In this document: one piece after another, positions 22,520 to 64,000 of the stretch
Layout: every line of letters starts with the position of its first letter
Position numbering within the stretch: position 1 is the stretch's first letter
Source of the DNA: Antedon mediterranea
Lineage: Eukaryota; Echinodermata; Crinoidea; Comatulida; Antedonidae
Length of the DNA stretch: 64,000 nt
Assembly: GCF_964355755.1 (NCBI RefSeq)
Contig: NC_092677.1
Span: 4,655,001-4,719,000, forward strand
Direction of reading: 5' to 3'
The notes under the pieces: generated by a model
Database searches by the model: none
Told to the model about the DNA's origin: nothing
What the model saw: the letters and a program-made list of their open reading frames with translations, nothing else
Position numbers and translations under genes: made by a program

Positions 22520-22592
22520 TATATATTAATATCTATTTTTTTGAGGTATTGTTTTTGTATACAATTAATATGCTAATTTTTCTAAAACATGT

Positions 22593-24918
22593 TAATAATT
22601 TACAGGTTTCTTTCCCATATTAGCATAATATTGATTGTTTTTCTATGTATTTTATTATTAAAATGTTAATAATTTACAGGTTTCTTTCCCATATTAGCAT
22701 AATATTGATTGTTTTTCTATGTATTTTATTATTAAAATGTTAATAATTTACAGGTTTCTTTCCCATATTAGCATAATATTGATTGTTTTTCTATGTATTT
22801 TATTATTAAAATGCTAATAATTTACAGGTTTCTTTCCCTTATTAGCATAATATTGATTGTTTTTCTATGTATTTTATTATTAAAATGCTAATAATTTACA
22901 GGTTTCTTTCCCTTAGTAGCATAATATTAATTTTTTTTTTTATGTATTTTATTATTAAAATGCTTATAATTTACAGGTTTCTTTCCCATATTAGCATAAT
23001 ATTGATTGTTTTTCTATGTATTTTATTATTAAAATGCTAATAATTTACAGGTTTCTTTTCCATATCAGCATAATATTGATTGTTTTTCTATGTATTTTAT
23101 TATTAAAATGCTAATAATTTACAGGTTTCTTTCCCTTATTAGCATAATATTGATTGTTTTTCTATGTATTTTATTATTAAAATGCTAATAATTTACAGGT
23201 TTCTTTCCCTTATTAGCATAATATTGATTGTTTTTCTATGTATTTTATTATTAAAATGCTAATAATTTACAGGTTTCTTTCCCATATTAGCATAATATTG
23301 ATTGTTTTTCTATTTATTTTATTATTAAAATGCTAATAATTTACAGGTTTCTTTCCCATATTAGCATAATATTGATTGTTTTTCTATGTATTTTCTTATT
23401 AAAATGCTAATAATTTACAGGTTTCTTTCCCATATTAGCATAATATTGATTGTTTTTCTATTTATTTTATTATTAAAATGCTAATAATTTACAGGTTTCT
23501 TTCCCATATTATCATAATATTGATTGTTTTTCTATGTATTTTATTATTAAAATGTTAATAATTTACAGGTTTCTTTCCCATATTAGCATAATATTGATTG
23601 TTTTTCTATGTATTTTATTATTAAAATGTTAATAATTTACAGGTTTCTTTCCCATATTAGCATAATATTGATTGTTTTTCTATGTATTTTATTATTAAAA
23701 TGCTAATAATTTACAGGTTTCTTTCCCTTATTAGCATAATATTGATTGTTTTTCTATGTATTTTATTATTAAAATGCTAATAATTTACAGGTTTCTTTCC
23801 CTTAGTAGCATAATATTAATTTTTTTTTTTATGTATTTTATTATTAAAATGCTTATAATTTACAGGTTTCTTTCCCATATTAGCATAATATTGATTGTTT
23901 TTCTATGTATTTTATTATTAAAATGCTAATAATTTACAGGTTTCTTTTCCATATCAGCATAATATTGATTGTTTTTCTATGTATTTTATTATTAAAATGC
24001 TAATAATTTACAGGTTTCTTTCCCTTATTAGCATAATATTGATTGTTTTTCTATGTATTTTATTATTAAAATGCTAATAATTTACAGGTTTCTTTCCCTT
24101 ATTAGCATAATATTGATTGTTTTTCTATGTATTTTATTATTAAAATGCTAATAATTTACAGGTTTCTTTCCCATATTAGCATAATATTGATTGTTTTTCT
24201 ATGTATTTTATTATTAAAATGCGTATAATTTACAGGTTTCTTTCCCATATTAGCATAATATTGATTGTTTTTCTATTTATTTTATTATTAAAATGCTAAT
24301 AATTTACAGGTTTCTTTCCCATATTAGCATAATATTGATTGTTTTTCTATGTATTTTCTTATTAAAATGCTAATAATTTACAGGTTTCTTTCCCATATTA
24401 GCATAATATTGATTGTTTTTCTATTTATTTTATTATTAAAATGCTAATAATTTAAAGGTTTCTTTCCCATATTATCATAATATTGATTGTTTTTCTATGT
24501 ATTTTATTATTAAAATGCTAATAATTTACAGGTTTCTTTCCCATATTAGCATAATATTGATTGTTTTTCTATGTATTTTATTATTAAAATGCTAATAATT
24601 TACAGGTTGATTTCCCTTATTAGCATAATGATTGTTTTTCTATGTATTTTATTAATAAAATGCTAATAATTTACAGGTTTCTTAACCATATTAGCATAAT
24701 GATTGTTTTTCTATGTATTTTATTATAAAAATGCTAATAATTTACAGGTTGATTTCCCATATTAGCATAATATTGATTGTTTTTCTATGTATTTTATTAT
24801 TAAAATGCTAATAATTTACAGGTTGATTTCCCATATTAGCATAATATTGATTGTTTTTCTATGTATTTTATTATTAAGATGCTAATAATTTACAGGTTTC
24901 TTTCCCATATTAGCATAA
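22593..24918. repeat. 74-bp minisatellite array
   Basis: This is about 31 tandem copies of a 74-bp AT-rich unit containing 'taataatttacaggtttc', 'tttcccatattagcataa' and 'tgattgtttttctatgta'. Variants are single substitutions (cccttatt/cccatatt, tatgtatt/tatttatt) plus a poly-T variant. A group of about 12 units is itself duplicated: the marker 'tgcttataattt' recurs at 22961 and 23850 with matching neighbours. Near the right end units lose 3 bp ('cataatgattg'). Each unit has TTTACAG, which looks like a 3' splice site on the plus strand. Confidence 0.97.
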
Positions 24919-46160: not shown

Positions 46161-49100
46161 TTATGTATTCCGAATGTTACTATAAGGTGATTCTACTAGA
46201 ACTTTCCCTTCATTTGATGACGTACTGACAACACATTTCCCCTCACTTAGGTTCGGCTCTTCGTAAATGGCAGCACTCTCCGAATCGTTCACTTCTTGGT
46301 ATTGATTATTAATTTCGATTTCTCTTACTCGTCTCTGCACCCGTCTATGCGCCTGTATTTCCTTGAAGAAAAAAATGATAAAAAGATATGCACCGTAAAT
46401 TTGATTGATAAATTAATGAACGTATCCTATACTGTGAAAAATAATACCATCTGTCCCGATGTCATAGATAATACAATGGTTTGCCAATGGTATCTTCTCT
46501 ATTTCTACTAGTTTCTGTCGAAGCAAAGTTCATCATACATGTTTACATTAGTCGCTCGTGATCTTAAGAGTTTGTTCCCAATTGTTTGGATAATTGGCAG
46601 TCGTTTGATTTGATTTGCCTGACTGGAAACGGAACCGTGCCGGAATATTTATTTTAAAATACCTTGAGTTCTTCAGAAGAGGTTTTACGTGACGTAGTCC
46701 TACTGGCACTACCAGTGCTGAGCTCTTGGTAAACACCAGAACCACTTGATGCAAACTGCAGTGCTTGATACTGAGAATGTTGACATTTTATTTCTCTTAT
46801 TCGTCTTTCCTACACAAACAATATTATAGATACGTTTTGGTGAAAGTGTAACATTATAAATATTGACACATTAGTTAGTTGCAAACACCGCCTGTGTCAT
46901 AGGCTACAATTTGAATTATCATACATGATTGGATAAAAAGCATCATGTGAATAATAATAATGCGTAGGTCCTATAACATACAGAATCATATAAGTAATGA
47001 TGTTAAATGCGCGTTTGTCTATCTAAAATAGTGTTGTGGGATTTAATCATGTACTTATACATTTATCCAATTTAATCTAATATATATAGGTACATGATTT
47101 AATAAACATCTACTTACATAAATATAACGGGTTGTTATGAATGTAGGAACGGAGCCGAAGATAAATGCAAAAATAGCTACTAGTACTGTAACTATCGGAA
47201 ACGATTCATCTAGAACGAGCTGATCTAGAAAATTAAATAATTGAACATTGTAAACACAAGAATAGAATAAATACAGTTTGCATTGCCGCTTGGTATGAGG
47301 TACTTTCTCATTATTCACTATATCTTTTAATTATTACTAAAGTTAATTCTTAAATGTTACCGTTAGACTGAATTCTTGTTTTGAATCCGTTCTATTTCAA
47401 AGAGTATAAATTAAGGTCATAAAACATAAAAAACGCAGGTGTACCTGTATAACAGTTCTTTAGTATTGTTATGTCATTAAACTTTTCATTCTCTGCATAA
47501 CATGTAATATTTGATTGACATGTCTCATCATTAATTTCTATAGTTGCTGTACTTTCTCCTCCTCTCTTAATCTCTTTTCCATCTTGTAATATCAATACTG
47601 ATGATGGCTTGGGATTGCCCTCTGCTGTACATGTTGCTACACCATCTTTAGATGTGAAATCAACATGAATATCTAAGAAAACAATAAAACAATCGGCTGG
47701 ATGAAACTCGATTCGTAATTATTAGTTGTTTAGCGAAGAATTGGTGTAGTACGGCCAAAAGCTAGGCGGTTTTGGTGGTATGGAGTGGTGTGTATGGGAC
47801 GGGTTTTCAACTGTTGTCAAAATAAGAACAGTGTTATTTGTACATACAATATACAATTAATTCTCTTGCTTCACTTGTTTTAGCATCCTCTCCTTTAAAC
47901 TGGTCACTTAATGCTTTACATGTATATCTCCCACCATCTTCTCCAGTTGCTGATTTAATTTTAAGAACTGACTCTGATCTGTATTGTGCAATTTCATATC
48001 TAGAAGGGTTGTTGGTGTTGACTGTCTGTCCATCTTTATACCAAGTAATGTGAGGAATAGGATCCCCATCAGCTTTACTACAGATAAAGGTCACTGATTG
48101 ACCTTCGTTGATGACATTTTCTGACGCAGAAAGAAGTGGTTGATCCAAGTCTGAGTAAAATTAAAATAGTGCAAGTAGTATCGTAGTTAATATACCAAAT
48201 TTCAATCAATCAATAAAGTAATCTTGAAATACAACCTTATTTAAAAAGAGAAATTTCCTTGTCTTTACAGTTGCCAGATATGGCATACAGTCGGGAAGCA
48301 TTACATATTTTAGACATTTAGGCCCCTATGCTTATTTTGTATGATTAGAATTATTCTAATTTCAGGAAAATTTTACATCATTTCTTTCCTCTCGGGAAGT
48401 TTGTTTTAGCAAACGAACTATTTAAAGGGCAAAATGATGCTTTCAATGTGAAAAAAAATTAAAATTTCTGTCAATAAGTTTTGTTATATGAATATGAATA
48501 ATAATAAGAAGTTGTTAAAATGAGTATGTTACTCACAATATACAGTTAGAATAGACTGATTTGATCTTCCAATTTCTCCATCCATTGTTCGTATCTCACA
48601 CAGAAATGTTCGTCCAGAATCATATCTCATTGGCTGTGACATCACCAAGTCAGCTTTCCCAGGTTTTATGTTTAATTTAAAACGTCCATTTTGTATCTTC
48701 TTATCATTAACAAGTACAAGAATAAATAAATTGCCATCTAGCATACCGGTACCCCATTCTATTGCATAAGGTGCAGTAGTAAACTGTGAATAATCACAAG
48801 TTATAACCACTTCAGCATCACCTTCCTTGGCTGTCTGGTCAGATGTTGTCACTAATTGGCATCGTGATTCTATAAAGATTATCAAACGTCCAGTCTTTAT
48901 TATACAGTAATAGGCTATTAATTGAAAACTGTATATAAGATGTTTTTTTTTTAAACTTTAATTGAAATTATTGATGAATTCATTCATATATTTGTAATAA
49001 TAATTGAGATAAAGTGTCTTGATAAAGCAATAATCATACATAACAACATTATAAATCTTATTTTGATTTAACATTCATTTGTCTGTTATTTTAAACAGAT

Positions 49101-49221
49101 ACAAATTATAATGCCTTTATCAGACCATATTCTATTGCATAAAAACTATAATTAGGTAGTACTGAATTAGTTTACCGAATAAAGAGTGTATAACAACTAA
49201 CAGCACCAACCATACAGTCAT
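46161..49221 (-). CDS. Ig-superfamily receptor, copy 1, 7 coding exons, 451 aa, tail type A
   Basis: Exons are 49176-49221, 48537-48869, 47848-48150, 47445-47672, 47118-47224, 46663-46809 and 46161-46352. The frame closes exactly. The start MTVWLVLLVVIHSLF is a signal peptide. Residues 16-126 form a V-type Ig domain (VVITCDYSQF, ending DSGRTFLCEIRT). Residues 127-227 form a C2-type domain (SVTFICSKADGD, TWYKDG, GGRYTCKA). Residues 228-303 form a third domain with four cysteines and no Trp. The membrane segment is FPIVTVLVAIFAFIFGSV near 312-329. The tail has SQYQAL and SPYSNI, both fitting the ITIM pattern, plus VYQEL, YQEV and YEEP. It looks like a cell-surface receptor signalling through SH2 proteins. 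The ligand is unknown and I cannot name an orthologue. Confidence 0.88.
46602..46650. mobile_element. Fragment related to the 27.3-kb MITE
   Basis: 'ggaaccgtgccgga' matches the inner terminal repeat of the element at 27252-27439. It lies in the last intron of receptor copy 1. The match is short, so the call is weak. Confidence 0.35.
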
Positions 49222-50798
49222 ATCTGTGGGGAAATGATAATATTTACATTCAATAGGCTTAATTAATATTGAAGTTCCCATCTATAATGGATGTAGTGTA
49301 TACCTTATCTGTTTCACTATTTTTTCATTTCATTTCATTCATTTTATTCATCAATTAAAATAATTATAAAACATGTCAAAGATAAAATGCATACAAGATG
49401 AAAAGGATCAACAACAAAAAGCTAAAAGCTTCAACAGGGTTGAAGACAACTATAAAACAGCTAATACTATCAATATGCCTAAATAAAAATAATAACAACA
49501 GATATCAGAATCGTCATAATGATTCTACTTACGGTAACTTATCATCATTGATAAAGTCTTCAAATCAATGTTGACAACGCGCTCCTCCTTTACCCTCTTA
49601 CACATAAACAAATTTAGATTACACTTTTTCATTAGAAACCAATCAATAAACGCCAATAACCATTATTACTATTAAATTAATTACTCACCTCTATTTCTGT
49701 GTACCTGCATGTCTGCGTTTTCATTTTTGTTAAAGATATACAGACAATCTTTGATATATATGTAATTTATTTGTTTCGATCTCGTGAAAAGAAGTTGGTT
49801 CGTTAGTTTCAATTATGTTATATCGTATTATTGCTGATTTGATTAATTTGTTACCACACAAACAAAATGACAACTTTTGTAAAAAGTAAACACTAATAGT
49901 CTCCATTTAATCTCGCCTTTTAAACTAACTTTTCGGAGATTTTCGATTACATTGCAACTCGTTTCCAATTGAAACTATATTTCTTCTACCCACCCGGAAA
50001 AGAGTGTTGTTATAAGTTTAATTGCTCAAATACTAGAGGAAAAAACTCCACAATTGTTGTTGATTGGTCTACACCTGTGTAGTTAAAAAAATGTCACATA
50101 ATCTACAACATGCTGCTGCTTATGTTTTATATTTTATACCTAAATAATGTATTATTATATGTGTGTTGATAAATACTAAATACATTTAGGCCTAAGAAAT
50201 ATAATAATAACACTAAAAACTTGAGTCAACTAATAATACTCATTTATACAGTTCAGTTTAATTATTGTCTAATTAAACATTTGTGTACAAAAATAGGGTT
50301 GTACTGGCTAATTTGAATTATCCCCTTACAGACATGCTTATTTAAAGACAAATCGTGTGACACAAAAACAATCCTCAAAATTATGAAACACAAGAGAACT
50401 AGGCCTATAGATTTATTATTGGAATATAATCATATAGATTTTTTTGCTGTGCACATGTCCTTTAAACAACGCGATAAAAACAGTATAATAACACTACTTA
50501 TTTCTACCTATTTTATAATGCTGCTTTCATTACATTAGTATGCCTGGTCCCCTAGATGATAATAACGAGAATAAACAAACGTATTTTATACATAAATTAC
50601 GCTTAGGCAACTTTCAATTGTTATTGTACCGTAGTCCTATATTATGTTTTTGTTATGACTCTCGTATACTTACAGAAAACCATTTTGTATAACACTTTCG
50701 CTTATATATTTCCTCGTTTACCATCTACTTTATGTTATATATTTATTTCCTTCATGCAAAATTAAACAACATTTTTTTGTATTTATTAATTTATATTT
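49222..50798. other. 5' region of receptor copy 1 and spacer to copy 2
   Basis: This holds the start of the first coding exon, a 5' UTR intron, the non-coding exon from 49689 and the promoter. Beyond about 49850 there is AT-rich sequence with no gene seen. Parts are alignable with 54230-55750 (for example 'cctagatgataataacgaga' words near 50550 and 55480), so the duplicated block extends through the spacer. Confidence 0.6.
49689..49770 (-). promoter_or_regulatory. 5' UTR exon and TATA-like promoter of receptor copy 1
   Basis: On the minus strand 'ataaattacatatatatcaa' (about 49750-49770) lies upstream of a short exon ending 'cagaaatagag/gtgagt' at 49689. The same order recurs at copies 2 and 3, with 'tgatatatatgtaattta'-type sequence (plus strand) conserved. 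A TATA box with transcription starting about 30 bp downstream is inferred. Confidence 0.55.
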
Positions 50799-53700
50799 TT
50801 AGTTATAGAACTGTTGAGAATAATGTGTTTCTGGAGTCTTTCCTTTTAGTGATGTACTGGTAACACCATCACGTGACGTATGTCCTTCGTACTGGGGATT
50901 TTGACATTCTATCTCAATCTTTCCTCCTCTTTTCTGAAAACAATAACATTAGGCCTATTGACTATTTTTAGATTAATCAATAAACCAAAAAATCAAACAT
51001 TTTACTGAACCTTGACAGTAAATGAAATATCAATAATCATAAAGAGGATGTGTGCCAATTTGACTAAGTATGTAATATCTTTAAAAGATACATTTGATTA
51101 TAATATTTCCGCGATAATACTGAATGTGCCACAGGAAATAATCAATAAAAGTGAGAGTTACACCCACAAAAGGGGGTTGTTGTTATGCAAACAAGATGCC
51201 TTAACAATTAATATTGTTTAGTTAGATAAGTTGTGTTACACTCCAAGGCATTATTGTACTGCGTCGTTTATTCAGAATTATTAATTTAAAAATGTTTACC
51301 TCTATTTTGCGCAATTCTTTCTTGGACGTAGTGAAGTCTTTTTTTATGTGTTGAAACTGAGGGTGTTTTATTTCTCTTTCCTAAAAAAATAATTGAGTTA
51401 AATCGAATGTTGTGGAATACTTAAGTAATACCTATAATATGTAGACGTTATTGTATATCATAACTGAAGGATAATATTTATTCCCAATTAATTTTTAAAT
51501 ACATACTACTTTATTAGACATAGGCTTGGTATATCTATCATCGTCTATGTCGGAGCTTGCTGAGCCTTTCAGACCTTGGTACTGAAGATTTTTGCATTCA
51601 ATTTCTATCACTTCTTTTTTCTAGAAAAAAAGTAGTTCCTATTTGTTAATTAGAAAGGTGTTGATAAACGTCTTATGTGGCGATGTCTAGTAATGGTGCG
51701 CTGAGTATTGTTCGTTTAAAGTGTTTTATTTTACTTTTAAAATACATACTATTTTTGATGTAGGCTTGACATATCCCTCCTCATCTATGGCGATAATAGA
51801 GTTTTCCGAAACTTGCAGATCTTGGTAGTCATGGTCTTGAAGTTCGATTTCTCCTACTTCTCTCTGTTAAACAATACCGTAGATGATGATTGTGTAAACA
51901 TTGATGTTTAGTTTTATATAGTTTGCATGTATGTATCCCTTACAAGTACTATTACTATTAGTTTGAACCTTACTTTACAGTGTGCAAAAATGGTAACACT
52001 TGCGTTTGAATTGTTACACATTAGTATAATTATAATGTTTAAAATGTATGTATACCTGTATTCTTGTTCTGGATATAGCTTTATTTGACGTCCTGTTAGC
52101 ACTAGCCTCCACTGTAGGACCTTTGTTGAGCTCTTTGCAGTCTCCAGCATTTGAAGAAAATTGCAATGATTGATATTGATGAAGACTTTGACATTTGGAA
52201 ATGATTTCTTCTTTCATTCGTTTTACCTTAAAAAATAACAGTAAAAACAGATAATAATACAAGTTTGTTTAAACGTACAAATATTAAGTTTCAAGAAAAA
52301 AAAAATGATATAATTTAGAACTATACTTACATAGATATAACGGATTATTAGGAAAGTCGGAGCAGAGCAAAGAATTGCAGTTATTGTTATAGTTATCAAT
52401 ATACTCATTGTACATGAACAGCCACCTAGAAAATTCAATGTGGAATGTTGAAATATATATTATCGTAGCACACTTTGCTGCTAAAACAATATTAACCATA
52501 AATCATTATAATATCATGCCAACTGGTACAACAATTTAAATATCAATTTGCGCAGTAAGATATACTTAGCACAACTATGAGAATACATATTATAGCGCCT
52601 ATGCACAGGATATTTTTACGGCAGAAACACTTGTACTATACCTGTGTTACACTCAAGTGGTGCTGTTTCACGAAGCCTTTCATTCTTTGCATAACATGTA
52701 GGTCTAATACTTGTTTGACATATCTCATCATTAATTTCTATAGTTGCTGTATTGTTTCCTTTCTTAACCACTTCTCCATCTTGTAATATCAATACTGATG
52801 ATGGCTTGGGATGGCCCTCTGCTGTACAGGTCGCAAAACCATTTGCAAGTTTAAATGTTACAATAATATCTAACAAAAGGGATAAAAAAAAGTTCTGAAC
52901 TCTAGTAGTCATTTTCACTTATGACGCAACAAACGTATATTTGTACATTATTTACCGGAAAATATGGAAAAAAAATGTGTTAATGATAATGGTGGAACAT
53001 TTCAAGAACTTATAAGCTTTACATACTATATATGTTAAACTGTCTTCCTTCACTTGTTTTACCATCCTCTCCTATAAACTGATCACTTTCTATTTTACAT
53101 GTATATCTCCCATCATTTTCTTCAGTAGCAGATATAATTGTAAGAAATGACTCTGTACTGTTGTTTGCAATCTCATATCTAGAAGGGTTGTCGGTGTTGA
53201 CTTTCTGTCCATCTTTGTACCAAGTAGCCCTAATGTAAGGAATGGGATCACCATCAGGTCTATAACAGGTGTAGGTCACTGATTGACCTTCATATGCTAA
53301 TGCTGCTGATGCAGAAAGGAGTGGTTGATCTAAGTCTGAATAAAAATATGATGATAGATTACTGTGCTGGCCAATATTAACCACCTGTACAGTGTCATAC
53401 AGGTGGACTATTATTATATTACAACCAGAAAACTATTATATTATATTAAATTATAAATTATAAAAATGGAAGATTCGTTTATCAGATTCTTTGTTATTTG
53501 AAGAAGACAAAAAATCAATGTTAACAATTGAATTATTGTTATATTATAATTTAACCTTACTCACAATAAACAGTTAGAATAGATGGATTTGAGCTTTTAA
53601 TATCTGCACTTGTTGTTAGTATCGCACACCGAAATGTTCGTCCAGAATCATTCCTCATTGGCTGTGACATCACCAAGTCAGCTTTCTCCGGTTTTATGTT

Positions 53701-54226
53701 TAATTTAAAACGACCATTTTCTAGCTTATTATCATCTACAAAGTTAATAGTAGATCCATCTTCATATAGTTCATACCATTCTATTGCATACGGTGTAGTA
53801 GTAGTAAATTGTGAATAATCACAAGTTATCACTACTTCAACATCACCTTCTTTGGCTGTCTGGTCAGACGTTGTCAACAATTGACCACGTGATTCTAAAG
53901 ATTAAGAATGCAAAACGTTACTGTCTTGCTTATGCATAAATTTATAGGCTATTATTATGGAAAACTAATGTAAGCAATATAGCCTTTTCCATTTTTTAAA
54001 ACTTTAAGTAACATGATTGATGAATTGATACATTTTCTGATAATAAAGTATAAGTTATAAAGCAAAGAAGTAATCATGTATACATAACAACATTTATTCG
54101 CAGATACAAATTATAATGCATCTGGCAGAACATTATTAATTGAAAACTATCACTGGTATATTACTCTGAATTTAGTTTACCGAATAAAGAGTGTATAACA
54201 ATTAGCAGCACCAACCATACAGTCAT
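50799..54226 (-). CDS. Ig-superfamily receptor, copy 2, 10 coding exons, 540 aa, tail type B
   Basis: Exons are 54181-54226, 53565-53894, 53027-53335, 52642-52869, 52331-52425, 52056-52226, 51750-51863, 51507-51620, 51300-51380 and 50799-50933. The frame closes to TAA. The layout is as in copy 1: signal peptide (MTVWLVLLIVIHSLF), V domain, C2 domain, four-cysteine domain, and membrane segment MSILITITITAILCSAPTFL. The tail differs. After a linker exon (HQYQSL) come two 38-codon exons, each with a YxxL-type motif followed by YxxP: DYQDL then GYVKP, and LQYQGL then RYTKP. The next exon carries a decayed version with Phe (QFQHI). The last exon has PQYEGH and ends HYSQQFYN. LQYQGL fits the ITIM pattern; YxxP is the motif preferred by Crk-type SH2 domains. 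Introns are nearly identical to those of copy 4 around the V exon. Confidence 0.87.
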
Positions 54227-55849
54227 ATCTGAGGGGAAATGATAATATTTACATTCAATAGGATTGATTAATATTGAAGTTCACATCTATAATAGATGTA
54301 GTGTATGCCTTATCTGTTTCACTATTTCACTATCAATAGGCCTAATAATAGGCCTAATAGAATATAAAGAATAATGTACAAAACATGTACTATATAAACA
54401 AAGCTAACAGTTATCAAATCATATTAAACATAATATACATTGATGATAATACATCTGTGTATTCGATACTCATGTCGATTGGTTAGAAAGTGTATAATAA
54501 TAAAAACAACAGATATGTAACATTTCTTGTCTTCAGCGGCTAACGTAATCCTAGTAACTTATTGATAACGTCATTAAAAATATCAATGTCAACAACATGC
54601 TCCTCCGTTACCCACTTACAATACAATTATCTTTCTTGGTCATAATTGTAACCATTTAATAATTATCAGTTATCATAATAATCAGTTACATTAATTACTC
54701 ACCTCTATCTCTGTGTACTTGCATCTCTGTGTTTTTAATTTTACGCAATAAGATATACATATACAATCTTAGATATATATGTAATTTATTTGTTTCGATC
54801 TCGTAAAAAGAAGTCATTTTATTCTCGCTTTTTAAACTAACTTCTGAGACAGGTAGTTAATAAGTTCGATTATATGCTCCTTGTTTTCCAATTAAAATGA
54901 TTATTTCTGCTACCCGGAAAAGTATATTGTTTAATTATTCAAATAATGTAGTACAAAGATACTGATGGCCACAAATGTATTGTTGATTGTTGTTAATATC
55001 AGGCAACACTGTGATTTCACTCTGCAGCTGTGTCAGTTATTTCCAGCCTACTTATTATAAACATGTTGCTGCTTTATGTATTTTATACGGCGATGTTATA
55101 ACTAATTACACTTCATTTCATAAATACAATAATATTCAACTCACAACACTATTTGCCACACCGTTTATTTTTAATTATTGTCTTAAAATGCCTCTCTATA
55201 AAATATTTGTATACAAAAATGGTATCTCACTGGGTAATGTAAACAATCCCCGTTCTTATTGAAATAAAAAAGTATAGCACAAACAATAATCCTCCAAAAA
55301 CACCAAGGAACTATAATAGATTGACTATTAGAATATAATTGATACATTTTTTGCTGTATATAAAACTACGCTAGAAAAGCAGTACAATTAAGAATAAACT
55401 ATAACTACACAAATTTAAGTATAAACATTTCTACCTATTTTACAATGCTCTAATTACATTAGTAGGCCTAGTCCCTTAGATGATAATAACGAGAATAAAC
55501 AAAACTTATTGTATACATAAATTACGCTTAAGCAGCTTCCAATTGTTATTGTACTGTAGGCCTATATTATACTTAAGTTTTTGTTATGACTCTCGTATAC
55601 TCATAAACAATTGGATAAACTCTCGCTTAGAGCAAGGTTTCATTTCCTCGTTAACCATTTATTTTATGTGTTTGTTATTAATTTCCGTCATGCAGAATAA
55701 TATAACAATTTGTGTTTGTATTTATTAAGTTATATATTTAGTTATAGAACTGTTGAGAATAATGTAGTTCTAGAGCCTTTCCCGTTTGTGACGTACTAGT
55801 AACACTATCACGTGACACATCCTTCGTACTGGGGATTCTGACATTTTAT
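54227..55849. other. 5' region of receptor copy 2 and spacer to copy 3
   Basis: This contains the 5' UTR intron and non-coding exon (from 54703) of copy 2 and then AT-rich spacer. No independent gene is seen. The last about 100 bases hold the decayed remainder of copy 3's final exon (55748-55849), which lies beyond that copy's stop codon. Confidence 0.6.
54703..54792 (-). promoter_or_regulatory. 5' UTR exon and TATA-like promoter of receptor copy 2
   Basis: A donor (cagagatagag/gtgagt, minus) lies at 54703. The 'agatatatatgtaatttatt' block at about 54771-54790 (plus) corresponds to the block at copies 1 and 3. Confidence 0.55.
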
Positions 55850-58800
55850 CTAAATCTTTCCTCCTGTTTTCTGAAGAAAAAAAATATAACAATATTGATT
55901 ATTATCGAGATTAATTGATTTTTAAAACTCAAAACAAATAATAATGTTTTTATGGACTTTGACATTATATAAAATATTAATATCAATGCTATTACAAACC
56001 AGTGCACATCCTTTTCCTAAACAAAATTAGAGTTCCAAGTTTGTTAATTAGTTTAAATTAGGTCAAACGTCTTGTGTGGCGATGTCCGGTAATGTTATGG
56101 TGACATAGCCCTACGTTTATTATTGTTCGTTTAATATGTTTACTTGTACTTTTGAAATGCATACTATTATTGACGCAGGCATGACATATCCCTCGTCATC
56201 TTCGATATCAGAGTTTGCTGAAACTTTCAATTCTTGGTAGTGATGGTCTTGACATTCGACTTTTACTTCTCTCTGTTAAACAATAGATGGTATTTATTTA
56301 ATCAAGTTTAGTTTTTGTGTGAAATAAGAAAATGTAAATGAACTGTAATTATTTGTTGAGTTTAAATTGTGTTACTTGAATTTACTCTCCACTTTTGAGA
56401 TACATACTTCTTTATCAGACATAGGCCTAACATATTCCTCGTCATCATTGTCAACATCAGTGTTTGCCGAAACTTGTAAATCTTCATATTGGTGACTTTG
56501 ACGTTCTATTTCTCTTACTTCTCTCTGTTAAACAATAGAGACGGTGTTTTGTAGTAAACATACTTTTAAGGTCAATTTAAACAGACGAGCTTAACTTAAA
56601 TTTTACCCGTATTCCTGTCCTGGATCTTTGTTTATTTGTCGTCCCGGTAACAGCAGACTCCATGGGTTCTTTCTTTAGCCATTTGTAATCCTCAGAATTT
56701 GAAGAAAATTGCAATGCTTGATACTGAGACTTTTGGCACTTGGAAAGGATTTTTTTTATTCGTTTAACCTTATAAAAGAGAAAAGTAACGATAACTCATA
56801 ACAAATTACCTCCGCCAAAGTTATATTTTCACCCATGATTGTGTATGTTAGTGTGTTTCATTTTTAAATCTCACCAAACTCGGAGACAAAGATCTACAGG
56901 TATGACTCAATTCTCACCGGAGGTTGGATATTATATAGGGGAATTACTGTAGGTGGATGTATGCATTCTTAGATTAGCCTCTAGTGTATATCTGAATTAT
57001 ATTTGAATTTGAAATATTTCTTAATTAACCTAAAAATACTTACATAGATATGACGGGTTATTATAAACGTCGGGACAACGCATAGAATTGCCGTTATTGC
57101 TATTGTTAGCACTGTACTTATTGCATGCGAACAACCACCTAAAAGGTACAAAGTAACATGTTGAAATTGACCTCTGCATTCACCAGCAGCACACACCAAC
57201 ACTCATACATTCAAACAATGAACAAGCGCTGTATCCCAAATGTATCAAACCATCGTGTGCATAACAAAATACTCTATGTTATCTTTTCGACCACTACAAC
57301 CCTAAGTTAAATCATATATGCATTTTCTATAATCTAATTCTTTCTTGGTTAAATACATTTGATGCCATGCTCTTAAGTCAAATTACCTGCGTTACAGTTC
57401 TCTAGAATAGCTGTATTACTCATTTTTTCATTCTCTGCATAACATGTAAGACTTGACTGACATATCTCATCATTAATGCCCAAGGTTACTGAATTTTCTC
57501 CTTTTATAACCAATTCTCCATCTTGTAAGATCAATATTGTTGTTGACAGTTTGGGATAGCCCTCAGCTGTACAAGTTGCAAAACCATTTTTAGGTTTAAA
57601 TGTCACAGTGATATCTAAACAAGTTAGAATAGAAATGTAGCTTATTAATTGTGGGACAACTCTCTGGAATTGACAAACAAGTTGTATACCTGTTTGCATT
57701 CATTAAAAAACTGTTTATTTAAACCACCATAAAAAGCCTGCCAAAGCTTCGGAAGGCAATTAAAATGTAGACAACCAATGCAAACAAACATTCTGAACCG
57801 TTTATCTTTTATCGAAAGCATTAAAAGCTTCGAATCAATGCTTTATAGGTTGGCAGGACCAAGGAAGAGTGAAGTTGTAATCACTCTTACCTGGCAAAAC
57901 ATTTTAGGCCTATTGAAGATTGTACATTTACATACGGTATATATCCAACTGTTTTTCAACACTTGTTTTAGCATCGTCTCCTTTAAACTGATCACTTTCT
58001 GCTTTACATGTATATCTCCCACCGTCTTCTTCAGTAGCTGATTTAATCTTAAGAACTGACACTGTACTGTTATTTGTAATGTCATATCTAGATGGGTTGA
58101 TATTTATTCTGCATCCATCTTTATACCACGTTAGGTCAGGAATAGGGTCTCCATCAGGTTTACTGCATGTAAATGTTACTGTTTCGTTTTTGAAGGTATT
58201 GGATGCGGAAGCACGAATAAGAGGTTTCTCTAAGTCTGAGAAAACAGATGGAAGAGACTACAATATTAGAGATAGTATAATTGGTTGTTTGCCTAATGTC
58301 TAGCAGATTGTCTATTTAGTTTTTGTGCGCATGATTTTTATAATCTGTTTAAACCATAATTTATTGTAGGTCTATTTAATGATTTTGGTACTCACAATAC
58401 ACAGTTAGAACAGATGGATTAGATAAGTGATCTAATCCATATGTTGTTTGTATCTCGCACCGAAATCTTCGCTGAGAATCATTTCTCGTTGGCTGTGACA
58501 TCACCAAGTTAGCTCTCACAGATGTTATGTTCAATTTAAAACGACCATTTTCTAACACCTTATCATTAACAAAACCAGGAGTAGTGACTACGCCATCTTC
58601 ATTTAATTCATCCCATTGTACTGTATTAGATGTAGTAGAAGTAAATTGTGAATAATCACAAGTTATCACCACTTCAGCATCACCTTCTTTAGCTATCTGG
58701 TCAGATGTTGTCACCGAATGACCATGTGATTCTAAAGATAAGGATACTATACTTATTTATTCAGTAAAACATAGGATATTAATTATGGAAAACTATTGCA

Positions 58801-59119
58801 ACCGGATTGAGCCTTTATATTTCAATTGCACTATTATTGTATAGATATTTTTTTTTAATTGTCTCTTAATAAGTTAAGTTGGAGATAACGTGTCTTGGTG
58901 GTAAAAGAAAGAATCAAAAAGTAGTAACAGGCGTCTACTTGTGTCTTTTTTTGATTTAAAATGTCTTTGTCTTTTATTTAAACAGATACAAGTTGTAATG
59001 CATCTAGCATGCAGAACATATATATTATTACTTAAAAACTACTAATAGGTAGTGTGTTACTAAATTGGTTTACCGAGTAAAGAGTGTATAACAACTAACA
59101 GCGGCAACCATAACACCAT
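55850..59119 (-). CDS. Ig-superfamily receptor, copy 3, 9 coding exons, 470 aa, tail type B truncated
   Basis: Exons are 59074-59119, 58396-58731, 57936-58235, 57387-57614, 57044-57138, 56607-56768, 56408-56524, 56165-56272 and 55850-55870. The domain order is as in the other copies. The signal peptide is MVLWLPLLVVIHSLL. In the V domain the usual DSGRTF is DSQRRF; the C2 domain has an extra Cys (KDGCRI). The tail has SQYQAL (ITIM pattern), then two cassette exons with HQYEDL...EYVRP and HHYQEL...GYVMP. The last exon meets a TAG after six codons (KTGGKI), where copy 2 reads on. Beyond it, a one-base deletion also breaks the old frame ('ggatgtgtcacg' against 'ggacatacgtcacg'). Loss of the final tyrosine segment is therefore real, but the receptor core is intact. 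Confidence 0.83.
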
Positions 59120-59371
59120 ATCTGAGAAAAAATAAGGATTTTTACATTCAATAGATTAATTAATATCTACCGTTGATGTTGTTATAATCAACACTTAGTT
59201 CATTCACGGCCTAAAAATGTCATTATATCAACATTTCTGTCGTTGTCTTGTTGTTGCCAACCTCACATCGCCATTGATAACGTAATAACCGTAATAAAAG
59301 AATGAGATGATTCTAAATCACCGACTTCTTCTGCGCATTTCGAAGTAATGGCAACATGCTCCTGCTCATGA

Positions 59372-59547
59372 GACCAATTCAGACAGCTTCGTACGATGAG
59401 TCGTCTCGTCGGGAGAAAATAAACATGTTTGAATTTCTCCTGACACACCGGGCAAGACGACTCGTCTCGTCGGGATTCAACTCAGACAGCACCGACGAGT
59501 CAAGAAGTTTCGTGGGGCCTCGTCGTACAACGCTGTCTGAGTTGGCC
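59372..59547. mobile_element. MITE, 'caattcagacagc' family
   Basis: The ends are 'gaccaattcagacagcttcg' and the inverse of 'cgctgtctgagttggcc'. Internal 'gactcgtctcgtcggga' words are repeated in direct and inverted form. There is no coding capacity. It lies in the 5' UTR intron of receptor copy 3 and is absent from the equivalent introns of copies 1 and 2. Confidence 0.6.
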
Positions 59548-59658
59548 TTACACGTTTACACATAAATATAATATATGGATTACAGTCATTGTCGAACACC
59601 AATCAACAAGGGCTTAAAAACTTTTATAAATTTTATTTAAATCATATTTATTACTCAC

Positions 59659-59755
59659 CTCTATCTCTAGGCCTATACATGCTTATCAGCGTTTTCGATT
59701 TTTACGTATAAATAAGATATAAAGACAATATTTGATATATATGTAATTTATTTTT
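59659..59755 (-). promoter_or_regulatory. 5' UTR exon and TATA-like promoter of receptor copy 3
   Basis: A donor (gagatagag/gtgagt, minus) is at 59659, and 'tttgatatatatgtaattta' at about 59730 (plus) matches copies 1 and 2. Confidence 0.55.
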
Positions 59756-60212
59756 TCAGAACAATTGATGATGCTAAGAAGCTAAGCGTTAGTTTCAATT
59801 ATGTTATATCTAAATCTACAAACTTCTTTGTACAGTACAGTAGACTCTCGAATCAGATCGACTGATGTCTTGTTCCCCGAAAACATGAAAAATGAAGATT
59901 AATATAAAAAAAATCAGACTTTCCATTTGGCATTTCAAATAAAGTTATTCACTTCCGTAGACAAAAAACGAACATAAATAATGATTTCACACAAAAAAAC
60001 GGATAGGCCTATATTTCAGGTAAATAATTAGTCAATAAAAAATATGTGAAATTAAAATGGCATTTTCAACAAATCAATGTGTTTTAAATATATTTTCTAA
60101 GGAGACAATATGCCTATCTTTAATCAAAACTGTAGTAAAAATACAATAAATACGCAATTTTCCTTGCTAATTTATTTTCTTTAAAGTTAAAATAAATGTA
60201 CGTGAAAACGAC

Positions 60213-63200
60213 TTATGTATTCCGAATGTTAGAATAATGTGATTCTCCTCCTAAAACGTTTCCCTTATTTGACAACGTACTGACAACACATTTCCCCTCA
60301 CTTAGGTTCGGCTCTTCGTAAATGGCAAGACTTTCCGAATCTTTCACTTCTTGGTATTGATTGTTACTTTCGATTTCTATTACCCGTCTCTGCACCCGTC
60401 GATGCGCCTGCTTGAAACAAATATGTATTTATATATTAACAATGATAAAGATATGCACACTGAATTTGTTATTAAAAGAATACCGTATATAAATAAAGAA
60501 CATAAATATAGAAAAAAAGATGCAACCTGTCCCGATCTATCATAGGGATAACCGGTATGGTTCACTAAAATATTTATATTTCTAGTTTCTGTAGAAGCAA
60601 CCACACGTGTTATTATCAGTGTTGCTTCTGATCACACAACTTTGTTTATGGAGGACGTAAGCGTAACGTAAAGCTCTGTCTATTCTAACAAACTTTATGT
60701 GATAAAAAAATGATGTAATATCACTACCATATTTGAGCATATCACTACCATATTTGGGCACATCACACTTTTTTTGCAAAACTAGTTTGATATTGTAGAC
60801 AGAGCTTAATTGATTTGGCCAATCACAAGCGATGGATTATTTTAACTTTCACTTGTCATTGATCAATTCGCATGTGTTGCGTCTAAACAAAAGAAGTTAA
60901 AGCGTGGTTCCCACTAGCGACGCATCACAAGGATGTAACGCAACGCAAGTTAATTGACCAATCACAAGCGATGGCTTATTCGCTTGTGATTGCTAACTGT
61001 CTATAACTTCGCTTGTCATTGGTTAAAACGCTTAAGTTGCGTTTACGTCCTTGCGTTACGTTCTAGTGGGAACCAAGCTTTAACGAGGGTTAATCAAAGA
61101 TTACATGTAATAGTAGTTTTTTGGTACCTCGAGTTCTCTAGAAGAAGCTTTACGTGACGTAGTCCTGGTACTGCGTCCATTATTTACTGAAGTATTTTTG
61201 CTGAGTTCTTGGTAAACACCAGAACCACTTGATGCAAACTGCAGTGCTTGATACTGAGAATGTTGACATTTTATTTCTCTTATTCGTCTTTTCTAAAGAA
61301 ACAATAAAAATAGTGGGTGACAATATTAATATTAGATATAAATATTTATACATTTAGTATATGTGGTTTTTAAATCCTGTGTACACATCCTAAAATACTG
61401 CGTTCAAATCGCGACTCTATAATAGTCCACACCAAGATGTTACTCGTGTGTTATAAGCATCAAATATGAGACTTAATGACTTTCCCATATTCTATAATTG
61501 GCGAAACGGAATAATTTTAATCACTTACGTTAAAGGAAATTATAAAGACAACATTTTAATAATCTGACCTACTGTATGTTGGTACCGTATTTATAGTAAG
61601 ATCTTTAAAAAAGGTTTCTTCCTCTCTTTTAACCTTCTTATTATCTGTATGATCCCTTTATAATCAGGTGGTTAAATGTCGTTCATGTTAAAATATATGC
61701 GTGCGTGTTAATAATCGAGAGTCTATACTTACATAAATATAACGGGTTGTTATAAAGGTAGGAACAGAGCCGAGAAAAAGCGCAGTTACTATAATTGCTA
61801 CAGTTAGTACTGTAAATATTGGACACGATTCACCTGGAAATATAATAAATTTTAACATATGAATACCATTATTACAATGTTTAGGGCATTCAAAATCTTC
61901 ATCCGCCACCCTGCTATGCTTGTTATACACCAAATAGAAACATAGCTTGCAAAATTATTTTATTGGTGATTTGATAAGAAAACTTAATGTTAATAAAAAT
62001 ACGTTATATCTACTTCTTACATTGATCGTAGTTCATAGATTTATTTTTTATTATTTCCAATCGATTAAAAGACCTTTTCATATCACAAACAATGATCGTG
62101 TGCGTGGTCCAAAACAAGAACTTAAATAAAATAAACTATAGGCTATGCATACTGGAAAATTATATCAAGGCCTATACCTGCTTTACAGTTCTCAAGTGTT
62201 GCTGTTTGTTTTAGCTTTCCATTCTCTGCATAACACGTAATATTTGGTTTACATATCTCATCATTAATTTCTATAGTTGCTGTATTGTCTGCTTTTACAA
62301 CCACTTCTCCATCTTTTAATATCAATACTGATGTTGGCTTGGGATGGCCCTCTGCTGTACAAGTTGCAATACCATCTCCAAATGCAAAAGTAACATGAAT
62401 AGCTAAAAAAATAATAATACAATCGGCATTATAGGCTACGGTTGATGCAACTCGATTCGTAATGACCATTTGTTTTTAGCATTTGGGTAAAATATATTAG
62501 TTAGAAGAATTGGTGTAGAGGCGGGTGGGGGCGGGGGGGGGGGGAGGGGGTCCAAAAGGGAAAGGTTTATACTGATATTGTCCAAATAAGATCAATATTA
62601 ATTTGACATACTATAAACAAGTATGTTCATCTGTTTTCCCAAAAGGGAAAGGTTTATACTGATATTGTCCAAATAAGATCAATATTAATTTGACATACTA
62701 TAAACAAGTATGTTCATCTGTTTTCCAACACTTGTTTTAGCATCCTCGCCTTTAAACTGATCACTTTCTGCTTTACATGTATATCTCCCACCATCTTCTT
62801 GAGTAGCTGATTTTATTTCAAGAACTGACTCTGTACTGTTATTGGTAATCTCATATCTAGAAGGGTTGTTGGTGTTGACTGTCTGTCCATCTTTATACCA
62901 AGTAATGTGAGGAATAGAATCACCATCAGGTTTACTACAGGTAAAGGTCACTGATTGACCTTCATAGACACTACTTGATGAGGCATCAAGAAGTGGTTGA
63001 TCTAAATCTGAAGAAAAATAAGACGCTAGATTACTGGGCTTGCCATATTCAACACCTGTAAACAGGTGGACTGAGAAATCTGTGATCATCAACAAGAAAA
63101 CTAAAAACGAAAATATCCTTTAGCAGATTCTTTGCTATTTAAGAGAATTTAATCTGTGTTACTCACAGTATACAGTTAGAATAGATGGATTTGAGCCTCT

Positions 63201-63882
63201 AATTATCCCCTCCGTTGTTCGTATTTCACACTGAAATGTTCGTCCAGAATCAGATCTCATTGGCTGTGACATCACCAAGTCAGCTTTCTCGGGTGTTGTA
63301 TTTAATGTAAAACGCCCGTTTTTAATCTTAATATCATTAACAAGGTTAATAGTAGATCCATCTTCATTTAGTTCATTCCATTCTATTGCAACAGGTCTAG
63401 TAGAAGTAAATTGTGAATAATCACAAGTTATCACTACTTCAACATCACCTTCTTTGGCTGTCTGGTCAGACGTTGTCACCAATTGACCACGTGATTCTAA
63501 AGATTAAGAATGCAAAACGTTACTCTCTTGCTTATGCATAAATTTATAGGCTATTATTATGGAAAACTATAAGCAATATAGCCTTTTCCGTTTTTTAAAA
63601 CTTTAAGTAACATGATTGATGAATTGATACATTTTCTGATAATAAAGTATAAGTTATAAAGCAAAGAAGTAATCATGTATACATAACAACATTTATTCGT
63701 CCAATTGTGTCCTGTTTTAGATTTAACATTCATTTGTCTTTTTTTTAAACAGATACAAATTATAATGCATGCGTCTGGCTGAACATTGATTATCAATTGA
63801 AGACTATTACTGGCATATTACTCTGAATTAGTTTACCGAATAAAGAGTGTATAACAATTAACAGCACCAACCATACAGCCAT
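60213..63882 (-). CDS. Ig-superfamily receptor, copy 4, 7 coding exons, 456 aa, tail type A
   Basis: Exons are 63837-63882, 63167-63496, 62699-63007, 62178-62402, 61733-61833, 61128-61292 and 60213-60407. The frame closes to TAA. The signal peptide is MAVWLVLLIVIHSLF. The V, C2 and four-cysteine domains follow, then membrane segment IFTVLTVAIIVTALFLGS. The tail is of copy-1 type: SQYQAL and SHYSNI fit the ITIM pattern, with VYQEL, YQEV and YEEP. The 5' half, including introns, is closest to copy 2, while the tail exons are closest to copy 1, so the gene is a mosaic. The donor of the C2 exon lies in an 87-bp direct duplication, so a second identical donor sits just downstream. The non-coding 5' exon is beyond the window edge. 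Confidence 0.87.
60672..60806. mobile_element. MITE, 'ctacactatcaaac' family, 135 bp
   Basis: Ends 'agctctgtctattctaaca' and 'tgatattgtagacagagct' are flanked by TAA on both sides (60669-60671 and 60807-60809). It is a relative of the copies at 26747 and 36148. The TWA duplication suggests PIF/Harbinger. It lies in the last intron of receptor copy 4. Confidence 0.7.
60901..61079. mobile_element. piggyBac-like MITE, 179 bp
   Basis: Inverted ends 'agcgtggttcccactag' and 'ctagtgggaaccaagct' are flanked by TTAA on both sides (60897-60900 and 61080-61083), the piggyBac target signature. Internal inverted words 'caatcacaagcga' and 'tcgcttgtgattg' form a hairpin. It lies in the last intron of receptor copy 4. 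Confidence 0.7.
62519..62550 (+). repeat. G-rich tract with quadruplex potential
   Basis: Runs of G (ggcgggtgggggcggggg followed by a 12-base G run region and gaggggg) give at least four G-runs of three or more. It lies in the intron between the C2 and four-cysteine exons of copy 4, on the non-transcribed strand's complement (C-rich in the RNA). Confidence 0.85.
62552..62727. repeat. 87-bp direct tandem duplication
   Basis: 'aaaagggaaaggtttatact' through 'gtatgttcatctgttttcc' occurs twice with period 87 (copies starting at 62554 and 62641). It duplicates the last bases of the C2 exon together with its donor (minus GTATGT) in receptor copy 4. Confidence 0.92.
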
Positions 63883-64000
63883 ATCTGAGGGGAAATGATA
63901 ATATTTACATTCAATAGCATAAATTAATCTTGAAGTTCACATATATCATTGATGTAGTGTATGCCTTATCTGTTTCACTATTGTTACTATCAATAGGCCT

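Follow-up and report, generated by a model that had tools for sequence, protein, structure and literature searches.

A large cluster of V-C2-C2 immunoglobulin receptor genes with ITAM-like tyrosine tails and head-to-head neighbors in the crinoid Antedon mediterranea

Four receptor genes at the edge of a large family

The window, i.e., the whole 64,000-nucleotide stretch of the Antedon mediterranea genome analyzed here (C8:4,655,001-4,719,000, where C8 stands for contig NC_092677.1), contains four minus-strand genes, g1-g4, located at window positions 46161-63884 and encoding predicted receptors with immunoglobulin (Ig) domains and tyrosine-rich tails. The genes were spliced exon by exon; all introns are of the AG..GT type and the joined frames are open (Table 1). 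Each gene consists of a short signal-peptide exon, a V-set domain (D1), a C2-like domain (D2), a third domain (D3), a transmembrane (TM) segment and a tyrosine tail, with splice phases 1-1 for the D1, D2 and D3 exons, 1-0 for the TM exon and 0-0 for the tail exons. This agrees with the original prediction, made from the sequence alone, of four same-strand genes with one exon plan. The tyrosine tails were also found as predicted, but their plan is not uniform, as two tail types with different exon numbers occur: type A in g1 and g4 (two exons) and type B in g2 (five exons) and g3 (three exons and a remnant). The identity of the other window genes to g4 is 66-79% in D1, 73-76% in D2 and 59-70% in D3, and the TM core of g1-g4 contains, by eye, no charged residue. 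In g1, g2 and g3, a conserved 5' exon with a GTGAGT donor carries an earlier ATG, in frame by reading of the joined letters, which would add a basic N-terminus to the signal peptide; the matching stretch of g4 falls beyond the window edge. A perfect 87-bp tandem duplication (window 62552-62726), adjoined by a long G run, covers the 3' end and the donor of the g4 D2 exon.

The size of the family was determined by a tblastn search of the genome (354 Mb, 18 contigs) with the D1 domain of g4, which gave 64 matches at E<=0.01 from 92 candidates, all of them scored. At E<=1e-24, 48 D1 exons were found genome-wide, 45 of them in C8:4.70-5.79 Mb, two on contig C3 and one on C4. Besides these, there were 14 weaker matches, a partial copy and, at C8:5.80 Mb, a 38% copy. 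Searches with D3 plus TM and with a blended tail cassette returned 60 and 36 genome matches, respectively. The genes g1-g4 stand at one end of a cluster that spans 1.1 Mb and includes at least 45 D1-bearing gene copies. The small tandem family that had been predicted is ruled out by this whole-genome search, and the occurrence of recent duplicates among tyrosine-tailed V-C2 receptors in a marine invertebrate is supported. For the 44 strong D1 exons lying beyond the window, 43 loci were fetched, two exons sharing one locus. An automatic exon caller placed D1 flanked by phase-1 splice sites in g1-g4 and in all fetched loci but one (42 of 43). The exception is L026, where D1 contains a stop; the other 47 of the 48 strong D1 matches are stop-free.

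Several copies depart from the common layout. Two D3 exons are present in loci L018, L019, L033, L038 and L042, and L010 has two successive D1 exons, with starts about 570 bases apart, before a single D2. Of the outliers, that at C4:12.70 Mb is a class II gene (the classes are described below), and at C3:26.14-26.20 Mb a class II gene on the plus strand is followed, about 32 kb further, by class I-type exons on the minus strand in convergent orientation. A second group of V-type exons lies in C8:1.02-1.63 Mb and accounts for 13 of the 14 weaker matches (31-39% identity to g4 D1). In this group, L053 contains a D1-D2 set twice, along with two TM exons similar to each other, and by eye the YQxL module was not seen there.

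The domain search proposed in the original prediction was carried out with Pfam on the four spliced proteins and matched Ig domains at E values of 1e-14 to 1e-21, the best stretch being D2. Taken alone, D1 matched V-set (E 2e-4) and D3 matched Ig_3 (E 0.001-0.008), neither reaching the curated cut-off. The cysteines of the B and F strands and the tryptophan of the C strand are canonical. AlphaFold models of D1 and D3 were built from four sequences each. The D1 model reached a mean predicted local distance difference test (pLDDT) score of 81 (five models, 81 to 32), and for D3 one of five models was confident (pLDDT 74; the other four 37-43), which makes the D3 model less safe than that of D1. 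The D1 model resembled antibody light-chain and T-cell receptor (TCR) V domains in Foldseek (E 1.6e-7) and an antibody light chain in VIA (Z 15.0, 1.8 Å, 103 residues), where TCR V domains were also listed. For D3, domain 2 of CD58, CD2 and CD48 ranked first in VIA (Z 10.2-9.5, 1.7-2.0 Å, 69-72 residues), Foldseek returned nothing under E 0.001 (best E 0.015), and a profile search reached Dscam Ig domains at E 0.0013-0.009. Most likely, the segment set apart in the original prediction as a four-Cys domain is a third, C2-like Ig domain; a separate non-Ig module is disfavored by the Pfam, profile and fold results.

Tyrosine motifs of the class I tails

The tyrosine motifs named in the original prediction are present in the tails: SQYQAL in g1, g3 and g4, SPYSNI in g1, SHYSNI in g4 and LQYQGL in g2, along with several YxxP sites, namely AIYEEP (g1, g4), EGYVKP and DRYTKP (g2), and EEYVRP and EGYVMP (g3). 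The consensus forms of the immunoreceptor tyrosine-based activation (ITAM) and inhibition (ITIM) motifs, of the half-ITAM (hemITAM) and of YxxP, with their SH2 partners, are applied here as generally known. For the four window tails, spliced by hand and containing 24 Tyr, motif frequencies were compared with 2,000 shuffles. The core Yxx[ILV] was found at 15 of the 24 Tyr versus 4.0 in shuffles and YxxP six times versus 0.5, and none of the 2,000 shuffles reached either value; the strict ITIM occurred six times versus 1.2, a level reached by a single shuffle. A pair of YxxL-type motifs at ITAM-like spacing (x6-9) was present in three of the four tails (g1, g3, g4; shuffle mean 0.03), and in g2 the second Tyr of this pair is replaced by Cys. 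The four tails are paralogues and therefore not independent of each other.

The window control was added because the search profile behind the wider set had been derived from these same window tails. This set comprised 24 class I loci, i.e., 20 fetched loci and g1-g4, collected in three rounds of profile search (L010 gave a TM match alone), and contained 76 automatically bounded tail exons with 177 Tyr, one of the five g2 exons being missed and some ends, as in L034, being doubtful. The core Yxx[ILV] was counted 84 times versus 29.3 ± 4.7 in shuffles and the strict ITIM ([SIVL]xYxx[ILV]) 20 times versus 7.3, with at least one in 16 of the 24 loci. YxxP, with 46 sites versus 5.6, was the most enriched single-Tyr motif counted. 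These numbers are descriptions rather than tests, because the search favors such exons and the copies are related. No match to hemITAM (loose pattern) or to the immunoreceptor tyrosine-based switch motif (ITSM) was found in the 76 tail exons.

A canonical ITAM consists of two Yxx[LI] units separated by 6-8 residues, with an acidic residue just before the first Tyr. The first tail exons follow the pattern YQxL-x7/8/9-YxxL/I, and spacing of x6-8 was found in 11 and of x6-9 in 15 of the 24 loci (0.05-0.06 in shuffles); the pair is absent from the other tail exons (0/52). The later tail exons are built from repeated YxxL...DDEGYxxP cassettes (REIExQHHQYQDLQVSANSDVDIDDEGYVKPTSNK-like), in which the residue at position -2 is mostly H or P. 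Among 33 modelled cassettes, the anchors are kept at the first Tyr in 29/33, Leu+3 in 31/33, the second Tyr in 31/32 and Pro+3 in 29/32, and these anchors show 1-3 replacement changes per site versus a mean of 4.9 (186 over 38 sites).

Candidate signaling partners are also encoded in the genome. The first SH2 exon of a tandem-SH2 gene at C6:0.543-0.545 Mb has SYK as its best PDB match (133 bits), followed by ZAP-70 (123 bits), and CSK is the best match outside this family (45 bits). A SHP2-type gene is located at C3:14.098-14.101 Mb; its two SH2 domains are covered by four exons with 66-80% identity to a typed human SHP2 sequence. Both assignments are based on SH2 rather than catalytic domains. 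Since Syk-type and SHP2-type tandem-SH2 genes are both present, ITAM-Syk and ITIM-SHP2 routes could both exist. Among echinoderms, a sea star egg transcriptome has been reported to include Syk (PMC11593052).

An alternative interpretation is that the receptors are mainly inhibitory, with YxxL sites recruiting SHP2-type phosphatases and damping the activation of coelomocytes. Strict ITIM sites in all four window genes and in most class I loci, the many YxxL sites per tail and the SHP2-type gene speak for such receptors. The ITAM-like spacing of the pair in the first tail exon, the predominance of H or P at -2 in the cassettes and the lack of ITSM speak against them, and a mainly inhibitory function is considered rather unlikely. 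The ITIM-like letters of the original prediction thus hold for all four genes, but a purely ITIM reading of the tails does not agree with the ITAM-like pair in 15 of 24 first tail exons and with H/P at -2.

Head-to-head pairs and evolution of the cluster

Besides class I, the cluster includes class II copies, which have D1-D2-D3 in common with class I (sometimes with two D3), followed by a different TM exon and, as a second hydrophobic exon, the Cys-rich X. In five aligned loci the chain, followed by eye, consists of TM, X, a small exon (phase 1 to 2) and a tail. Exon X occurs at 19 places of the genome, 17 of them on C8, and is stop-free in all 19. In L017, for example, it lies at about 3209-3475 and encodes the Cys-rich hydrophobic segment VCQFVCYCCLYFCGFFC after the TM, with no Pfam match over the cut-off. 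The topology of class II proteins is tentative, because the symmetric TM exon (phase 1-1) could be skipped. The TM is followed by YKNI in juxtamembrane position; further down there may be an acidic-dileucine exon, which was not joined to the chain. The X exon at 5,079,596 has no D1 of its own.

The arrangement of the two classes was analyzed in 45 mapped C8 gene copies, which do not include the partial copy or the additional, second D1 exon in L010. A copy was called class I by a tail exon or tail match (L010 by TM only) and class II by an X exon downstream on the same strand within <=30 kb, which gave 25 class I, 15 class II and five unclassified copies. Seventeen pairs of neighbors, i.e., 34 of the 45 copies, are divergent (head-to-head), and none of 20,000 strand shuffles gave as many (mean 10.6, maximum 16). 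Both members could be classified in 12 of the divergent pairs, and in each of these 12 class I faces class II, once in the opposite orientation. The median D1-D1 gap is 7.4 kb in divergent pairs (2.5 to 42.6 kb) versus 29 kb for 16 convergent neighbors. Signal-peptide-like exons, recognized by hydrophobicity alone, were located 2.1, 3.2 and 3.4 kb apart in the partners of three of six regions; one of the other regions was ambiguous, one had the exon of a single partner, and in one no such exon was found. The differently tailed partners lie outside the window and for this reason could not be seen in the original prediction.

Between the pairs L022/L006 and L024/L007, which are separated by about 465 kb, D1 identity is 99.7% for both members, suggesting that the pair was duplicated as a unit. 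A single class I clade, tested with unclassified rows dropped, was rejected for D1 (loss of log-likelihood 100, approximately unbiased test p 0.001; 43/47 rows) and was not rejected at 0.05 for D2 (21.9, p 0.072; 39/43 rows) or D3 (17.2, p 0.127; 43/48 rows). D1 does not sort by tail class, as would be expected if V exons had moved between the classes. Less movement of D2 and D3 is suggested but not demonstrated, because these domains are shorter or less varied. L042 looks chimeric, with first exons similar to L032 and the second D3, TM and tail similar to L016, and its two D3 differ in type.

The possibility that the copies are instead an expanded set of adhesion or wiring receptors (nectin, SynCAM, JAM, Dpr-like) or gamete-recognition receptors was also considered. 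In such proteins the Tyr motifs would steer the cytoskeleton and endocytosis, YxxP acting through Crk/Abl and YxxL through AP-2. The V-C2-C2 layout, SynCAM2 and nectin-like 1 in the fold list of D1, Dscam, Robo and JAM in the sequence match list and the strong enrichment of YxxP are consistent with this role. However, the copy number, the recent copying of a whole pair, the mixing of D1 and the stop-bearing copy are unusual for wiring genes, and ITAM spacing is rare in adhesion families. An adhesion or gamete-recognition function therefore seems doubtful.

The ratio of nonsynonymous to synonymous changes (dN/dS), obtained by counting, was 0.62 for D1, 0.56 for D2, 0.63 for D3 and 0.53 for the cassettes. 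The BC and FG loops change faster than the strands (p 0.037), but the difference from all other sites is not significant (p 0.13). In 16 divergent pairs, D1 identity was above random (0.788 versus 0.761 for nucleotides; 0.643 versus 0.625 for proteins, p 0.015). Values of 0.53-0.81 over D1, D2, D3 and the tail exons, together with the stop in D1 of L026 and the premature stop in the last exon of g3, would also fit a largely neutral expansion of paralogues under relaxed constraint, with few functional members. Such an expansion appears improbable in view of the stop-free D1 and X exons, 20-25 sites under purifying selection (p<0.05) in each Ig exon and the preserved splice phases.

The window contains several further features. 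A 57-bp satellite array with about 383 copies and a strong strand skew occupies positions 1-21831; its open frames are fragmented, none exceeding 719 codons, and the positions of open reading frames and repeats recur with a period of about 8,001 bases, which gives the appearance of an 8-kb higher-order copy. A 74-bp tandem repeat (31.5 copies, 96% matches) follows at 22589-24918, and a 47-bp minisatellite forms two blocks downstream of g1 (44062-44314 and 44637-44977). The Glu/Lys-rich frames at 40-41 kb look like coiled coil. A WW-domain-like exon resembling CEP164 lies on the minus strand at 43223-43582; its Pfam match to WW (E 1e-4) does not reach the cut-off. Rfam gave nothing at gathering scores within the window. 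Elsewhere in the genome, tektin-1 joined from locus L045 scored 499 bits with the sea urchin chain of 8SNB and 339 bits with the human chain of 7UNG (PMC10973386, PMC12551952), in keeping with an echinoderm; COX1 was not found in the assembly.

Table 1. Positions of the receptor genes, exons and ITAM-like pairs in the window (SP, signal peptide). Upstream starts were counted by hand and the coordinates of ITAM-like pairs were counted from the exon.
Feature	Window position	Strand	Remarks
g1, class I, tail type A	46161..49223	-	joined frame 454 residues, introns AG..GT
g1 exons	SP 49223-49176, D1 48869-48537, D2 48150-47848, D3 47672-47445, TM 47224-47118	-	
g1 tail exons	46809-46663, 46361-46161	-	
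g1 upstream coding start	49689..49710	-	in-frame ATG, conserved 5' exon, donor GTGAGT
g1 ITAM-like pair	46720..46770	-	YQAL-x9-YQEL, first tail exon
g1 last tail exon	46161..46361	-	NNQYQEV, AIYEEP, SPYSNI
g2, class I, tail type B	50799..54228	-	joined frame 539 residues, five tail exons
g2 exons	SP 54228-54181, D1 53894-53565, D2 53335-53027, D3 52869-52642, TM 52425-52331	-	
g2 tail exons	52226-52056, 51863-51750, 51620-51510, 51380-51300, 50933-50799	-	
g2 upstream coding start	54703..54724	-	in 5' exon
g3, class I, tail type B	55850..59121	-	joined frame 470 residues
g3 exons	SP 59121-59074, D1 58731-58396, D2 58235-57936, D3 57614-57387, TM 57138-57044	-	
g3 tail exons	56768-56607, 56524-56408, 56272-56165	-	premature stop in last exon
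g3 upstream coding start	59659..59680	-	in 5' exon
g3 ITAM-like pair	56676..56723	-	YQAL-x8-YKWL, first tail exon
g4, class I, tail type A	60213..63884	-	joined frame 456 residues
g4 exons	SP 63884-63837, D1 63496-63167, D2 63007-62699, D3 62402-62178, TM 61833-61733	-	
g4 tail exons	61292-61128, 60407-60213	-	
g4 ITAM-like pair	61203..61253	-	YQAL-x9-YQEL

Interpretation and comparison with known recognition systems

Taken together, g1-g4 are probably class I members of a large, fast-duplicating clustered family of paired recognition receptors with ITAM-like motifs in cis, although our confidence in this interpretation is moderate. The confidences attached to this and to the other interpretations are not mutually exclusive, as one family can hold both ITAM-like and ITIM-like outputs. 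Several observations weigh against the interpretation as paired ITAM-like receptors. The x9 spacing in g1 and g4 is one residue above the canonical range, nine of the 24 loci, g2 included, have no x6-9 pair, the alignment of 24 first tail exons, inspected by eye, shows no acidic residue immediately ahead of the first ITAM Tyr, and the Pfam ITAM model was unmatched in six first tail exons scanned. The first tail exon is near neutral (dN/dS 0.81), and the paralogues, whose tails in the 24-locus set were reached through a window-cassette profile, are not independent draws. With regard to pairing, the window genes and the next tandem copies form an unpaired left edge of the cluster, five of the 45 copies, all on the plus strand, are unclassified (one of them, L043, with a class II-like TM by eye), the X exon at 5,750,168 has no nearby D1, and the class II tail, the end of which is not fixed, is of the EEYxMM type in three of five aligned loci, with Tyr replaced in the other two. 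Partner-specific co-evolution of D1 was rejected, since the protein identity of partners (0.635) did not exceed that of convergent neighbors (0.637). Moreover, site tests gave no clear positive selection: a replacement excess at p<0.1 was found at 5 of 107 D1, 3 of 100 D2 and 5 of 74 D3 sites, no more than expected by chance. The positive selection in the V exon for which the original prediction had proposed to look in related genomes did not clearly appear among the copies of this genome, and the family can be called actively evolving with respect to copy number and to D1 mixing between tail classes, but not with respect to positive selection (dN/dS 0.56-0.63 in the Ig domains).

From the sequence we infer surface expression, ITAM-Syk signaling, phosphorylation, co-expression of partners, a ligand and a role in coelomocytes. 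The V domain may bind a cell-surface or microbial ligand, and the resulting clustering could allow a Src-type kinase to phosphorylate the ITAM-like pair, to which the tandem SH2 domains of Syk would be recruited. The additional YxxL and YxxP sites may recruit further SH2 proteins (SHP2, Crk/Nck type), tuning or spreading the signal. The class II partner would then be a co-receptor or counter-receptor, perhaps co-expressed from the region between the two starts. V exons might pass between the classes by duplication or conversion, which, it is proposed, would let receptors with different outputs keep related specificities. The most likely role of such receptors would be recognition by coelomocytes, either of pathogens or of self and non-self.

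The closest system in working principle, by analogy and not as the same family, is the fuhc locus of the tunicate Botryllus schlosseri. The fester co-receptors (FcoR) and the fester family (FF) of this locus are described as clustered type I Ig superfamily (IgSF) receptors with a V and two C2 domains, whose tails carry ITIM, hemITAM or core YxxI/L/V motifs, and each FF is encoded beside its cognate FcoR (PMC12065747). V plus two C2 domains, YxxL tails and neighboring pairs with different tails (12/12 classified pairs I/II) are likewise found in the crinoid cluster. FcoR has a sushi domain, and fester and uncle fester reportedly encode no known signaling domain (PMC12065747). In contrast, no sushi domain was matched in the four window proteins at Pfam E<=0.1, classes I and II share three Ig domains, and the tails hold duplicated YxxL/YxxP cassettes instead of hemITAM. 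The cluster described here, moreover, belongs to an echinoderm. The Hydractinia Alr complex is described as a cluster of 41 IgSF genes that encode domains of the V-set and I-set types, with ITAM/ITIM-type motifs in candidate genes (PMC11999971, PMC11067881, PMC12065747). The crinoid domains have canonical Cys and Trp and clear Pfam Ig matches. Alr domains, in contrast, reportedly lack many canonical V/I motifs (Huene 2022), and we know of no divergent gene pairing in Alr.

Vertebrate paired receptors (KIR, LILR/PIR, SIRP, CD300) form tandem clusters in which related ectodomains are combined with different tails and exons are exchanged, and a shared ectodomain and D1 mixing were seen here as well. 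Activating receptors of this kind usually signal through an ITAM adaptor that they engage by a charged TM residue, unlike g1, g3 and g4, which carry the ITAM-like motif in cis, and unlike g1-g4 with their uncharged TM core. By motif layout they can be likened, as analogues, to the cis-ITAM receptor Fc-gamma-RIIA. The V-set D1 and a small C2 domain near domain 2 of CD2, CD58 and CD48 in fold recall the CD2/SLAM family, but three Ig domains are present instead of two and ITSM is lacking in the 76 tail exons. Echinoderms are known for very large innate repertoires, and sea urchin SpTransformer (185/333) is described as a likewise clustered, duplicating echinoderm immune family. SpTransformer proteins, however, are not IgSF receptors. 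Among the matches listed in open PubMed Central, judged by title and the start of the abstract, neither clustered IgSF receptors with ITAM-like tails nor divergent Ig receptor pairs in echinoderms were found, which is weak evidence of absence.

A further-reaching and tentative possibility is that the echinoderm lineage independently built a germline recognition locus of head-to-head pairs, in which two subunits share the V-C2-C2 ectodomain, one having an ITAM-like and the other a different tail, and work as a two-V heterodimer or as matched activating and modulating receptors, with V exons moving between the classes. If true, this locus would correspond, in an echinoderm, to the leukocyte receptor complex and to fuhc. 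It predicts co-expression of partners, recruitment of Syk and haplotype variation in gene-pair content. A 45-copy IgSF cluster with many divergent, differently tailed pairs would allow Botryllus FF/FcoR and Hydractinia Alr to be compared with it directly and in a testable way, and raises the question of whether unrelated systems of self/non-self recognition repeatedly converge on YxxL signaling and paired genes.

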